DNA of 28,915 bases from a virus. The DNA lies in IMG/VR virus record IMGVR_UViG_3300042430_000414, positions 1-28,915 of that record. The stretch is one strand, 5' to 3'. The notes below the pieces were generated by a model that was not told where the DNA came from, searched no databases, and saw only the letters and a program-made list of their open reading frames with translations. Shown here piece after piece: positions 280 to 13,106 of this stretch; the stretch's first letter is position 1; each line of letters opens with the position of its first letter. The translations under genes and the position numbers were made by a program.

Positions 280-987
280 TTAGAAGTCTAATCCATCATC
301 ATCATCGGCATCCTGCATATCATTAAAGTCATTTGCAATATCTCCGTTCAATACAACCTCGATGTCGGCTTTGACTAAATATGTTTTAAGATATGCTTCA
401 AGTTGGTTGAATACTTCATCGGCTTGTGAGTTTTGCTCATCGTTAAGCGATCCATCAAATGTAAACTCTGGAACTGAAAATTTAACTGCTCCCTTTTTTC
501 CATCTTTAGCGGTCTTAACGCTTACCCATTCATCACTAAGGCGTGAACGTGTCTTTTGTGTAAAATCTCCCCACGCTTGAACTGCGGAACCTTTTAATTG
601 TATATTGGCAATGGTTCCATCTTCAAGCATAATATAAACTGACTTTGTGTAATGCCCTCCAGCAGCAACAATCTTGTCTTTAATATCTTTATAAATACCT
701 TTTGCAATTTCGTTACCTTTAAAAGGTTTAACGGTCATAATATCTTTGGAGATATATTTTACCTCATTTGAAAAGATATTACTTCCAGATGCATCATTCC
801 AACCTTTAATGGTGTGAAGTTCATCTAGTGTAAGGAATTTAAAAGGCAAAGGGATTGCAACGTTCTTTTGTGCTTCTTTGTCATAATAAGAAAAACATTT
901 GTCGTTTGATTTCCACTCGATAAATTTAGTGGCTGGATTTGTTTGTGGTTGTGCAAACGCTTGTCTGCGGTTTGAAGTTGTACTCAT
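280..987 (-). CDS. Probable single-stranded DNA-binding protein
   Basis: 235 residues. The clearest clue is the C-terminus: a run of aspartates ending in a hydrophobic tip (DADDDDGLDF), the hallmark of bacterial SSB and T7 gp2.5-type proteins, where the acidic tail recruits replication partners. The N-terminus is polar and probably disordered (residues 1-20, many N, Q, T); residues 21-215 look like a mixed alpha/beta domain without a motif I can name. Length fits gp2.5-like proteins better than canonical SSB (about 150-180). It has its own promoter-like sequence upstream, starts at ATG in a TATTATT-ATG context, and is followed directly by a terminator, so it may be strongly expressed as a single-gene transcript. 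The function is inferred from the tail and from nearby DNA-metabolism genes. Confidence 0.55.
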   Translation of the reverse strand: MSTTSNRRQAFAQPQTNPATKFIEWKSNDKCFSYYDKEAQKNVAIPLPFKFLTLDELHTIKGWNDASGSNIFSNEVKYISKDIMTVKPFKGNEIAKGIYKDIKDKIVAAGGHYTKSVYIMLEDGTIANIQLKGSAVQAWGDFTQKTRSRLSDEWVSVKTAKDGKKGAVKFSVPEFTFDGSLNDEQNSQADEVFNQLEAYLKTYLVKADIEVVLNGDIANDFNDMQDADDDDGLDF

Positions 988-1053: not shown

Positions 1054-1085
1054 TAAATATAGTAAATTAAAATGATATTGCCAAA
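1054..1085 (-). promoter_or_regulatory. Bacteroidota-type promoter for the SSB-like gene
   Basis: On the minus strand a TTTG (1085-1082) is separated by 20 nt from TATATTTA (1061-1054), a 7/8 match to the Bacteroidota -7 element TAnnTTTG. Transcription would start near 1047, giving a leader of about 60 nt before the ATG at 987. The -33 element overlaps the end of the upstream 147-residue gene. Confidence 0.55.
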
Positions 1086-1510
1086 CTGCTTTTGCGAGGC
1101 GTTGTTGATACTTTAGGCACTTGAACTCCAGCCGCATCGTATATTTCGTTTTGCGATTTCAAAGCTAGTTTAAGAAGTTCCTCACGTTCTTTTAATTCTC
1201 GGTTAATATCGCTCCAAACTTCGCAATCTTTGTAATTAATTGTTTCGCCACCGCTTCTGAACGTGCCTTTAAGTCCAAACGCTTCAAAGTTTTCTTGTGG
1301 GAGTACTTTTAAAAGTTCAGCGTTAATCACTTCCAATGCCTCGCCCATTCGTTTGGCTTGCGCTAATAGTTCAAATTTGTCAATCTCTCCAGCATCTAAA
1401 ACTTCTTTAATGAATGTTTGTGCCGAGAACTGGATCTCTTTTTTGTTTGGCAGGAAATTTTGTGTTTGAATTTCTTGCTCCCTCATTAACTGAAATAAAT
1501 CTTTACTCAT
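1067..1510 (-). CDS. Conserved-looking phage protein of unknown function
   Basis: 147 residues, not assigned to a family. The protein is rich in charged helices: residues 35-68 and 95-125 look like amphipathic helices with possible coiled-coil character (ELLAQAKRMGEALEVINAEL; NRELKEREELLKLALKSQ). The C-terminus (KVSTTPRKSSLAISF) is basic and then hydrophobic. It sits between a DNA methyltransferase and an SSB-like gene, so a role in DNA replication or recombination is plausible from context only. Its most notable trait is upstream: a near-consensus promoter at 1612-1642 and a leader of roughly 95 nt holding two hairpins with complementary loops. ATG lies in an AACATT-ATG context shared with several other genes here. 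Confidence 0.7.
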   Translation of the reverse strand: MSKDLFQLMREQEIQTQNFLPNKKEIQFSAQTFIKEVLDAGEIDKFELLAQAKRMGEALEVINAELLKVLPQENFEAFGLKGTFRSGGETINYKDCEVWSDINRELKEREELLKLALKSQNEIYDAAGVQVPKVSTTPRKSSLAISF

Positions 1511-1527
1511 AATGTTTAAATTAAAAA

Positions 1528-1571
1528 ATCCTAACTTAAATCCTACTGGTCAGAGTAGGCAAAATTAGGAT
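1528..1571 (-). terminator. Structured hairpin with T run; terminator or attenuator candidate
   Basis: On the minus strand ATCCTAA (1571-1565) pairs with TTAGGAT (1534-1528). Inside, CCTACT (1559-1554) pairs with AGTAGG (1547-1542) around the loop CTGACC. The downstream arm is followed by T residues and A/T-rich sequence, so the element could end transcripts leaving the methyltransferase gene or attenuate transcription from the promoter at 1612-1642. The two helices are separated by an asymmetric internal loop, which weakens the terminator reading. Confidence 0.45.
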
Positions 1572-1606
1572 CGATTATAGTTTTGTTTCAATCTCTGACC
1601 AGATTG
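1542..1606 (-). promoter_or_regulatory. Paired hairpins with perfectly complementary loops (candidate kissing-loop leader)
   Basis: Hairpin A (1589-1606): 6-bp stem CAATCT/AGATTG, 6-nt loop. Hairpin B (1542-1559): 6-bp stem CCTACT/AGTAGG, 6-nt loop. On the minus-strand RNA the loops are GGUCAG and CUGACC, exact complements. Each loop is closed by the same CU...AG bases, so a 10-nt inverted repeat (CTGGTCAGAG with CTCTGACCAG) is shared. Hairpin A begins at or near the predicted start of transcription from the promoter at 1612-1642, so the pair would form the 5' end of the mRNA for the 147-residue gene. The pairing is directly visible; a regulatory role is inference. Confidence 0.6.
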
Positions 1607-1611
1607 TTTTG

Positions 1612-1642
1612 CAAATATAAAAAAAAGTTTTTAATCTGCAAA
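1612..1642 (-). promoter_or_regulatory. Near-consensus Bacteroidota promoter
   Basis: On the minus strand TTTG (1642-1639), a 19-nt spacer, then TATATTTG (1619-1612): a full match to the Bacteroidota -33/-7 pattern TTTG-N19-TAnnTTTG. It is the best promoter match I found in the window. The -33 element lies inside the last codons of the methyltransferase gene. The start of transcription should fall near 1605-1608, just at hairpin A. Confidence 0.75.
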
Positions 1643-10452: not shown

Positions 10453-12183
10453 TTACATATCGTGAGGAGCGATATAGACTTTTTGTGGGTTGGTTGGTGC
10501 TATCTCTCCCGCTTTTCTTACATCTGCTGGAGTTGATGGTTGTGCCGCGGTATTTTTGCCCGTTCCTATTTTTCTGTACATCTCACGTACCCAAAAATGC
10601 TTACAAGTTCCGAAAGGAAAAGCATCGCTTAAAAGTCCGCCACCTTTCCATAAAAATATATCGTAAGGTTGATTCGGGTTTGGTCGCATTCCGAATCCAG
10701 GATTAACATTTCGTTGGCTCATTAACTCGATGTCCTCTTTTCTGTATAACTTATTTGCTCGCATCATAGCTTTGCAAAACTCTCTTTCCGGGTTTGGATT
10801 GCCGCTATATCTGTAACGTGTAATGTATAACTTTGTGTCTTGCTCGGAAACGCTTTTAGTTCGTGCAGTTCCAGTGCTAACCGCCTCCATTGCAACATTC
10901 ATCAATTTAACGGTTGTAGCGTTTAACCTTTCCATTTCCGCATCACGTTCCTCTTCTTTGTCGTAGTCTACTGGATCGGAACTAACCAACTCCCACTCGT
11001 TCAAATCTATTTCATCTCCTAAATCTGAAAAGTCATCAGCAGATAACTTTACTTCCTGCGCTGGTGCTATTGTAGTTGTTGCGATTGGCTCCTCACTTCT
11101 CAAACTTAAAAACTGCAAATCTAAACTGATACCGTTTGCCGCTAGTATTTCCATTAAGCCATCCAAAATAATTTCTTGCTTTGGCGTAATTACGTTAATC
11201 ATTAACTCGGCAAATCCAACTTTAATTTCTTCTGCATTTGAACTGAATCCGCTTGCCTCTTTTATACCTACCAACATCGGTGATGTAAGTTTGTGAGCGG
11301 TGCAAAGTTGTTGCCTAGCTTCCGCGCTTAAATACTCATATTGTTTGTGCGCCTCGCTAACATCCAAAGCGGTTATTGTAATTTCACTTTCTTTATTATC
11401 GTTCCAATTTAAAAAGAAATTCCCAGCTTTATTTGATCCCGTTAAATTCTCACGAATTCTGCGAGTGCTTTCCATTATTTCTATTTCACTGGCTTGAACT
11501 CCAGCGTTCATATTAATAATGTACCCAAATGAAAGTCCGTTTTGTATGTGCTTAATACAATAGTTTTGAAATTCCTCCTCAAATTTTGCCCAAGATAACC
11601 CACTTACATAACTAGGGTTTGAATAATAAAATTGCCCTACTTGGTAATCTCGTATGATATAAATTTCTGAACGCTCTCCGCTTCCGCTTCCAAAACCGAA
11701 AGCATCATATCGCTCGGGTTTATATTTTTGAACATTTGAAAAATCATAACTATACCAATATCCAGTAATATCGCCATCCTCATTCGCTACTTCGGGAGCA
11801 ACCCTTTCTTTGGCTATATGGTAAACTTTTCGTACTTCATTATTTAAATATTTGACTTCAACTGAAGCCTCGCCAAACATTTCAAAATCTTTGCAAATTT
11901 TTCTTAATTCTTTTTTGTCAAAGATGGTGTTTAATGCGCTCCACTCTTTCGGTTTGGTTAACTTCTCGTTGGAGTTAATCCCTTTACCGTAAATGAAATT
12001 GGCGTAACTATCAATTATTGCACTATTTGTAGTTGATCCGTTATAAGCATCAATAATCGTTTTGTAAAATTCGTTATTTCGCCCATTCAATACCCACTTT
12101 TTACCCTGCACCTCTTTAATTTCTGGGCGGATGTAGTTTGATAATTGAATTTCGAATACTCTTTGTTGTGGTTTATTAGCCAT
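10453..12183 (-). CDS. Portal protein with C-terminal MuF-like domain
   Basis: 576 residues. The first 370 or so fit a portal: NEFYKTIIDAYNGSTTNSAI near the start, then a clip/stem region rich in helices (QASEIEIMESTRRIRENL), and LVGIKEASGFSSNAEEI as in related portals. The ring would sit at the unique capsid vertex for DNA entry and exit. Residues 370-410 are an acidic linker. The region about 450-545 (KLYITRYRYSG, NPEREFCKAMM, NPGFG, CKHFWVREMYRKIG) has the conserved features of the MuF minor head protein C-terminal domain, including the C-x-H-x-W element. So it appears to be a portal-MuF fusion, explaining its size and the absence of a separate MuF gene. Confidence 0.8.
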   Translation of the reverse strand: MANKPQQRVFEIQLSNYIRPEIKEVQGKKWVLNGRNNEFYKTIIDAYNGSTTNSAIIDSYANFIYGKGINSNEKLTKPKEWSALNTIFDKKELRKICKDFEMFGEASVEVKYLNNEVRKVYHIAKERVAPEVANEDGDITGYWYSYDFSNVQKYKPERYDAFGFGSGSGERSEIYIIRDYQVGQFYYSNPSYVSGLSWAKFEEEFQNYCIKHIQNGLSFGYIINMNAGVQASEIEIMESTRRIRENLTGSNKAGNFFLNWNDNKESEITITALDVSEAHKQYEYLSAEARQQLCTAHKLTSPMLVGIKEASGFSSNAEEIKVGFAELMINVITPKQEIILDGLMEILAANGISLDLQFLSLRSEEPIATTTIAPAQEVKLSADDFSDLGDEIDLNEWELVSSDPVDYDKEEERDAEMERLNATTVKLMNVAMEAVSTGTARTKSVSEQDTKLYITRYRYSGNPNPEREFCKAMMRANKLYRKEDIELMSQRNVNPGFGMRPNPNQPYDIFLWKGGGLLSDAFPFGTCKHFWVREMYRKIGTGKNTAAQPSTPADVRKAGEIAPTNPQKVYIAPHDM

Positions 12184-12575: not shown

Positions 12576-13106
12576 TTAAGAAACAACCGTTGCAGATACA
12601 AAAGTTAACAATTCAGCTTTTGTAGTGTTATCTAAGAAAGGAGATAATGAACCTTCCTCGGCAGTGATGGTAAGTGTAAATCCTGAGAGGTCGCCTCCCG
12701 CTGCGCCACTCGCTTTGGTACAGTTGCTCATTGTGCCATTTGTTGCTCCTAAAAGCATAATATTACCGTTGTAATCTTCTACAAATACAAAAGGTCTGCC
12801 CTGACAAATTAATTGTACTTGCGCTTGTAAATCTGCCGCCAATTTTGGAAGTGTAACCGCCAAAGATTGAGCCACTAAATAAGTTCCGTTATCTTCAGAA
12901 CTTGTACCCGTTTCTGTTAGTGCGTTTGTTGTAGCTTTTACTTCGTATTTAAAAACTTCGTCTAAAGTTCCCAAATCGGTAACCGCTTGCGCTGCTACTA
13001 CAAAACCGTAAGAATCGTAATTCGCAAAGTAAAGGTTTTTAATACCTCCTCTTTGATTTTTACAATTATTCAAAAGTCTACCCGCAGTTATTGGACAATA
13101 TGCCAT
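12576..13106 (-). CDS. Probable major tail tube protein
   Basis: 176 residues, beta-rich. Features supporting a tube subunit: strand-forming central region (FKYEVKATTNALTETGTSS), then LAVTLPKLAADLQAQVQLIC and RPFVFVEDYNGN, and an immunoglobulin-like C-terminal part (GDLSGFTLTITAEEGS). The pattern matches abundant tail proteins of Bacteroidota siphophages. Intrinsic terminators lie both before and after it, implying strong, nearly monocistronic expression, as needed for a protein with many copies per virion. It could instead be a capsid decoration protein, but the length and strand pattern favour the tube. Confidence 0.6.
   Translation of the reverse strand: MAYCPITAGRLLNNCKNQRGGIKNLYFANYDSYGFVVAAQAVTDLGTLDEVFKYEVKATTNALTETGTSSEDNGTYLVAQSLAVTLPKLAADLQAQVQLICQGRPFVFVEDYNGNIMLLGATNGTMSNCTKASGAAGGDLSGFTLTITAEEGSLSPFLDNTTKAELLTFVSATVVS

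Follow-up and report, generated by a model that had tools for sequence, protein, structure and literature searches.

Kissing-loop leaders with a terminator-like hairpin in Flavobacterium-type phages: a recurrent architecture that probably acts as a conditional terminator

The window, that is, the whole 28,915-nt stretch of viral DNA analyzed here (IMG/VR record IMGVR_UViG_3300042430_000414, positions 1 to 28,915), carries on its minus strand a compact leader placed between a predicted promoter and a 147-aa ORF. The parts of this leader and the genes that follow it are:

1639..1642, minus strand: TTTG, -33 box of the predicted promoter (sequence)
1612..1619, minus strand: TATATTTG, -7 box, Flavobacterium sigma-A consensus TAnnTTTG (sequence; consensus from PMC9723704)
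1607, minus strand: predicted +1, from the box position rule
1589..1606, minus strand: hairpin A, CAAUCU-GGUCAG-AGAUUG, loop at 1600-1595 (sequence and fold; double changes of the stem in relatives)
1572..1588, minus strand: A/U-rich linker of 17 nt
1562..1571, minus strand: 5' arm of the outer, terminator-like helix (fold)
1542..1559, minus strand: hairpin B, CCUACU-CUGACC-AGUAGG, loop at 1553-1548 complementary to loop A (sequence, fold, and family alignment)
1528..1537, minus strand: 3' arm of the outer helix (fold)
1523..1527, minus strand: U-run abutting the outer helix (sequence)
1067..1510, minus strand: 147-aa ORF, first gene after the leader, start codon 17 nt from the helix
280..987, minus strand: 235-aa ORF, second gene of the presumed operon, phrog_6706

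The promoter consists of TTTG (1642-1639), a spacer of 19 nt, and TATATTTG (1619-1612) on the minus strand, in agreement with the first-pass annotation of this DNA. The TAnnTTTG box of F. psychrophilum occupies -12 to -5 (PMC9723704), which puts the expected transcription start in the window at 1607, the base that directly precedes hairpin A, and the hairpins stand at the predicted 5' end of the mRNA, as had been proposed. The 147-aa ORF had no Pfam or PHROG family match. A T-run hairpin lies downstream of the 235-aa gene (about 262-230), and the leader therefore probably heads a two-gene operon. The 235-aa protein (280-987, minus strand) has homologues 30-35% identical in many Mycobacterium phages and had no match in Flavobacterium phage records. 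On the same strand, a DNA methyltransferase gene (1631-2476) shows about 71% DNA identity to methyltransferase genes of Campylobacter CJIE4-type phages, a similarity that possibly reflects transfer between distant phages.

Both hairpins were found exactly where they had been annotated (in DNA letters, CAATCT-GGTCAG-AGATTG at 1606-1589 and CCTACT-CTGACC-AGTAGG at 1559-1542, minus strand). Their loops are exact complements, and with two bases on each side of the 6-nt loops the match extends to 10 nt (CTGGTCAGAG/CTCTGACCAG); CTGGTCAGAG occurs once in the whole window. The outer helix of 10 bp (1571-1562 with 1537-1528) encloses hairpin B and is followed by the U-run and the ATG at 1510-1508. The minimum free energy (MFE) fold of the minus strand contains hairpins A and B and the nested helix (z = -2.98), its energy was matched by 1 of 200 shuffles, and hairpin B is indeed nested in a terminator-like helix with a T run.

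A search of related phage DNA, about 3.3 Mb, turned up the same layout again, with many different kissing sequences, in 56 non-redundant leaders. It is this recurrence with unrelated sequences in many related phages that bears out the earlier view of the loops as a selected pair. The genes downstream of the 56 leaders are mostly DNA-replication, recombination or homing-endonuclease genes: their products include DnaG zinc-ribbon primase, BT4734-like and other primase-type proteins, RecT-like and ParB-like proteins, as well as Lin1244-N, DUF1376, and DUF6291 proteins and homing endonucleases of the NUMOD4-HNH and GIY-YIG types. Every element has an ORF of at least 40 aa at the nearby ATG, and 49 of the 56 also have a same-strand ORF upstream, ending at most 250 nt from the promoter box.

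A promoter-anchored scan of 3.14 Mb of viral contigs, done without a U-run requirement and with a score of 28 or more, recovered 97 unique elements with 60 distinct kissing sequences; 84 of the elements had a T-run and a nearby ATG. The controls gave 13 hits with reversed loops (one with both T-run and ATG), 16 with loop identity (none with both), and 19 with loop complement (10 with both), the last control being inflated because type I elements also score there (e.g., window 1619). Comparative evidence thus places the loop match far beyond chance, an explanation that the first-pass annotation had already found less appealing; its figure of one in 4096 was intuitive.

Among 42 IMG/VR relatives of the 147-aa gene, the leaders at the same spot fall into three alleles of unrelated sequence and identical layout: allele I (GGUCAG/CUGACC and variants), allele II (CGCCAA/UUGGCG), and allele III (AUGGUAC/GUACCAU). 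The initial scan also found the layout, with yet other loops, ahead of other genes. Elements are present in named isolates as well, namely tooticki6-1 (at 11590, before an annotated NUMOD4 endonuclease, and at 12625), lillamy9-1 (14098), filifjonk9-1 (13861), and elemoF (9325, minus strand). The element was not found in Cellulophaga phi46:1, phi17:1, or the examined part of Maribacter Panino. A covariance model of one subfamily (R1, described below), used with strict filters, gave zero matches in 399 same-family, 41 same-genus, and 41 same-phylum host genomes.

In a survey of gene families, in which leaders were chosen by protein homology alone and 1.2 kb upstream was scanned, the element was present in 31/35 cases for the 147-aa family, 6/14 for BT4734-like, 9/59 for ParB-like, and 3/36 for RecT-like genes. 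Its distribution across gene families is patchy. Extra genes separate the 147-aa gene from the kissing leader in three loci (L021, L026, and L030), a NUMOD4-HNH-like endonuclease in L021 and probably in L030 and a small ORF in L026, so that the kissing leader there heads the inserted gene. A Lacinutrix MAG has, in one phage-like contig (L280:6959-7806, minus strand), two kissing leaders with different codes, which lie about 650 nt apart and precede a 209-aa ORF and a 298-aa ORF.

The dimensions of the element were compared over the 56 non-redundant leaders. Stem A has 4-9 bp and the outer stem 6-13 bp, and the linker between hairpin A and the terminator is mostly 16-20 nt long and 82% A+T. Of the 56 elements, 18 have a TTG at 17-22 nt ahead of the -7 box, compared with 4 that have one at 24-29 nt. 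Hairpin A alone is weak (mean MFE -3.1 kcal/mol). The kissing complementarity ranges from 6 to 10 nt and is exactly 7 in 30 of the 56, about the size of the loop; across families, the switch to a 10-base long-range stem that had been suggested from the window was rejected on this ground and is not supported as a general mechanism.

Linkers shorter than 22 nt are unstructured, and 9/10 linkers of at least 22 nt hold an inserted hairpin. The long linkers have a mean MFE of -4.65, against -1.0 after shuffling, and their unpaired remainder is about 10-19 nt. Such a length would fit a closed ring if kissing and the terminator helix coexist. Leaders with three hairpins, the extra small one lying in a long linker, were observed at L036:8618, L055:3800, L239-:19383, L242:4039, and L244:14144. 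Among short linkers, linker length and helix length were not correlated.

An AGUA/GAA(A) internal loop between the outer stem and the kissing hairpin was found in 7/56 elements (L009:1908-2002, L136:4577, L161:4289, L186:3938, L104:5774, L193:7281, and L224:4447), against 0.06 after shuffling; in its sequence, this internal loop conforms to the loop-E or sarcin-ricin consensus. L034 seems to carry it in reverse orientation. By eye, GAU/UGAA is a second recurrent pair.

Loop pairing was examined in leaders selected by structure only (promoter, first hairpin, terminator stem, T-rich tail, and ATG). A loop match of at least 6 nt was present in 47 of the 61 non-redundant cases, whereas 1.7 were expected from re-paired loops and the reversal, complement, and identity controls gave 1, 7, and 0, respectively. 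The covariance model R1 was built from six HNH-type leaders without the kissing pairs, and its loop columns hold some sequence preference. It gave 40 matches in two thirds of the loci, of which 31 distinct ones were carried forward; all 31 had a loop match of at least 6 nt, compared with 7.5 expected. These sites include two in the phage-like contig of the Lacinutrix MAG, one of which the hairpin scan had missed because of its longer loop. The duplex energy of the two loops of a leader averaged -10.6 kcal/mol, compared with -3.2 for re-paired loops.

Fourteen leaders of the window family were aligned; four of them (L032, L035, L036, and L230) were first noticed by the scan, and L032, L035, and L036 lie upstream of the same gene as the window leader. 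Every tested pair is a standard pair, and double changes are seen in nine pairs, of which two belong to the kissing match and seven to stems. When the partner is slid, pairing falls to 13-42%. Uncompensated loop changes in relatives had been named as a way to refute the pairing; all 14 leaders are 100% paired at the tested positions, and the unrelated alleles stay complementary. A natural swap is seen, by sequence comparison, where alleles I and II have replaced one another between near-identical flanks: L006 and L001 are 97.5% identical over the upstream 120 nt and 91.6% in the gene, but only 60% in the element, and both elements are self-complementary. The sequence has been lost there and the loop match kept.

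The structure of the element is well supported, and we infer from it a regulatory action. We consider that the feature in the window is probably, at about 0.55, a cis-acting promoter-proximal conditional terminator in a kissing-loop fold. A host-type promoter would start transcription of a phage early operon directly before hairpin A, and the RNA would carry, in order, hairpin A, a short single-stranded linker, and a terminator-type hairpin with the complement of loop A exposed in the loop of its apical part. Kissing between these loops would be intramolecular and would take place while RNA polymerase makes the terminator, and the leader would then adopt a closed pseudoknotted shape ending in the U-run just before the start codon. 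The kissing fold would set the choice between a stop, which would leave a leader RNA of about 80 nt, and read-through into the replication genes. The switch may be kinetic, through kissing during synthesis of the 3' arm, or may lie in a property of the fold sensed by a protein, and a candidate factor of the host or the phage would recognize the shape of the fold regardless of its sequence. The order of promoter, RNA, U-run, and ORF leaves no space for a second promoter, and the gene would therefore be made by read-through of the U-run.

No excess pairing of hairpin A or the linker with the terminator arms was detected: hairpin A plus linker gave -3.51 kcal/mol with the outer 5' arm (-3.36 in re-paired controls) and -3.58 with the outer 3' arm (-3.66 in re-paired controls). 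An antiterminator helix was accordingly rejected, and a classical attenuator is not supported. Since no antiterminator pairing was found and kissing is compatible with the terminator stem, a trans factor or a kinetic step probably decides read-through.

The target of the pT181 attenuator of a Staphylococcus plasmid is a replication gene. In that system a 5' hairpin loop, kissing, and an intrinsic terminator are combined in a leader (PMC4878617), and the phage elements likewise have a terminator-like hairpin and a U-run in the 5' leader. The partner loop of pT181 is on a separate antisense RNA, whereas both loops of the phage leader are on one RNA, with the partner loop inside the terminator itself. 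The pT181 antiterminator helix competes with the terminator, while the phage leaders fail the antiterminator pairing test. By analogy, the kissing leader would work most like a pT181 attenuator whose antisense loop has been moved in cis.

The ColE1 RNA I/RNA II kissing complex is recognized by Rop. Like it, the phage leaders would form short loop-loop helices with a shape that can be recognized largely independently of sequence. Unlike it, they are intramolecular and come without a known Rop-like protein, the ColE1 complex being intermolecular and serving copy-number control.

A different role in translation or RNA stability is unlikely, though not negligible. The kissing fold could cap the 5' end of the mRNA against decay or leave a U/A-rich start region unstructured and open to ribosomes that work without Shine-Dalgarno pairing, with the U-run forming part of the initiation region and real termination being minor. 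Hairpin A does lie at the extreme 5' end, the ATG is just 6-26 nt downstream of the outer helix (n = 56), and Bacteroidia ribosomes are described as not recognizing Shine-Dalgarno sequences (PMC9976891). The spacing between helix and ATG is, however, broad, and the stems are followed at their foot by U-rich runs as in intrinsic terminators, with a mean of 6.2 U in the first 8 nt past the stem. The hairpins of T4-type leaders (I-TevI, segB, mobE, and seg43(25)) also place a stem directly upstream of homing endonuclease genes, and in seg43(25) a very stable stem is found just ahead of the start region (PMC2988022). The T4 helix hides the RBS, whereas the start codon of the kissing leaders lies downstream of the outer helix, and the kissing hairpin and U-run present in the phage leaders are not described for T4.

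It is rather improbable that the product is the terminated leader itself, a compact kissing-loop small RNA of about 80 nt that would act in trans on the host or the phage, with the downstream genes expressed by leakage. Promoter, structured RNA, and terminator do make up a complete small-RNA gene, and a stable fold is predicted, but conservation is limited to the architecture and an ORF stands right behind the element in 56/56 cases. The loops are moreover private to each element. None of the 46 cross-combinations between leaders of one phage reached 6 nt, so that a trans network among them was rejected, and the antisense-type control in trans once envisaged for the window is not supported. 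Within one locus with two or three elements, the loop codes differ and do not cross-match, which argues for action in cis.

Lambda N/nut, lambda Q, and HK022 put also have structured RNA and terminators between a phage promoter and early genes (PMC9378689). In structure and order only, the predicted terminator directly between promoter and genes resembles lambda Q/tR', and the RNA of about 70-75 nt with two stem-loops past an early promoter resembles HK022 put in its geometry. Lambda and put depend on one conserved site sequence, while the phage leaders are many, each with its own loop code. An RNA-only antiterminator of the put kind, in which the two-hairpin RNA would act on RNA polymerase and suppress its own and later terminators, has an RNA of similar size (about 75 nt) and position to HK022 putL in its favor (PMC9378689). 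We nevertheless regard it as very improbable: put is described as a pair of stem-loops that include no terminator, and its two copies have a common sequence, whereas the kissing leaders share an architecture in which sequence is free and loop complementarity alone is kept. A DNA-level element (an origin, a recombination site, or a protein-binding site) or chance inverted repeats can practically be set aside, because, although in DNA the 10-nt match likewise makes an inverted repeat, the orientation is fixed relative to promoter, U-run, and ORF, the family alignment has G-U pairs on the sense strand and zero A-C cells, and different sequences recur far above the controls.

The search of the window against Rfam returned zero families at or above the gathering cut-off. 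RT-14 (RF02921) and TEG147 (RF03535) share with the leaders a terminator-like hairpin with the AGUA/GAA internal loop, in weak alignments; at 23.8 and 22.1 bits against cut-offs of 48.1 and 56.1, membership in either was rejected, and the matches to DUF805b and a miRNA family were also below cut-off. A search for RT-14 in 395 Bacteroidota genomes gave one weak locus that, judged by eye, seems to adjoin a reverse transcriptase gene. Ordinary homology or Rfam-style searches would miss the element, since only the loop match and the shape are conserved and the sequence can vary freely. No description of a kissing-terminator leader was found in the open-access literature searched.

The earlier interpretation is thus partly supported; it had noticed a single instance of an element that is in fact widespread. 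We infer a conditional-terminator action from sequence comparison, and the kissing leaders are a real and apparently undescribed element, presumably a gene-control device, of Flavobacterium-type phages. More tentatively, and at less than even odds, phages of Flavobacteriaceae may use a sequence-independent RNA address, in which self-kissing terminator leaders would be controlled in common by a factor that reads their shape, and private loop codes would avoid cross-pairing. The kissing leaders suggest that a large group of environmental phages has a class of regulatory RNA not described before, and they offer natural, orthogonal, and self-contained kissing-terminator parts. They also allow a test of whether intramolecular loop kissing is by itself enough to determine how often an intrinsic terminator is read through.
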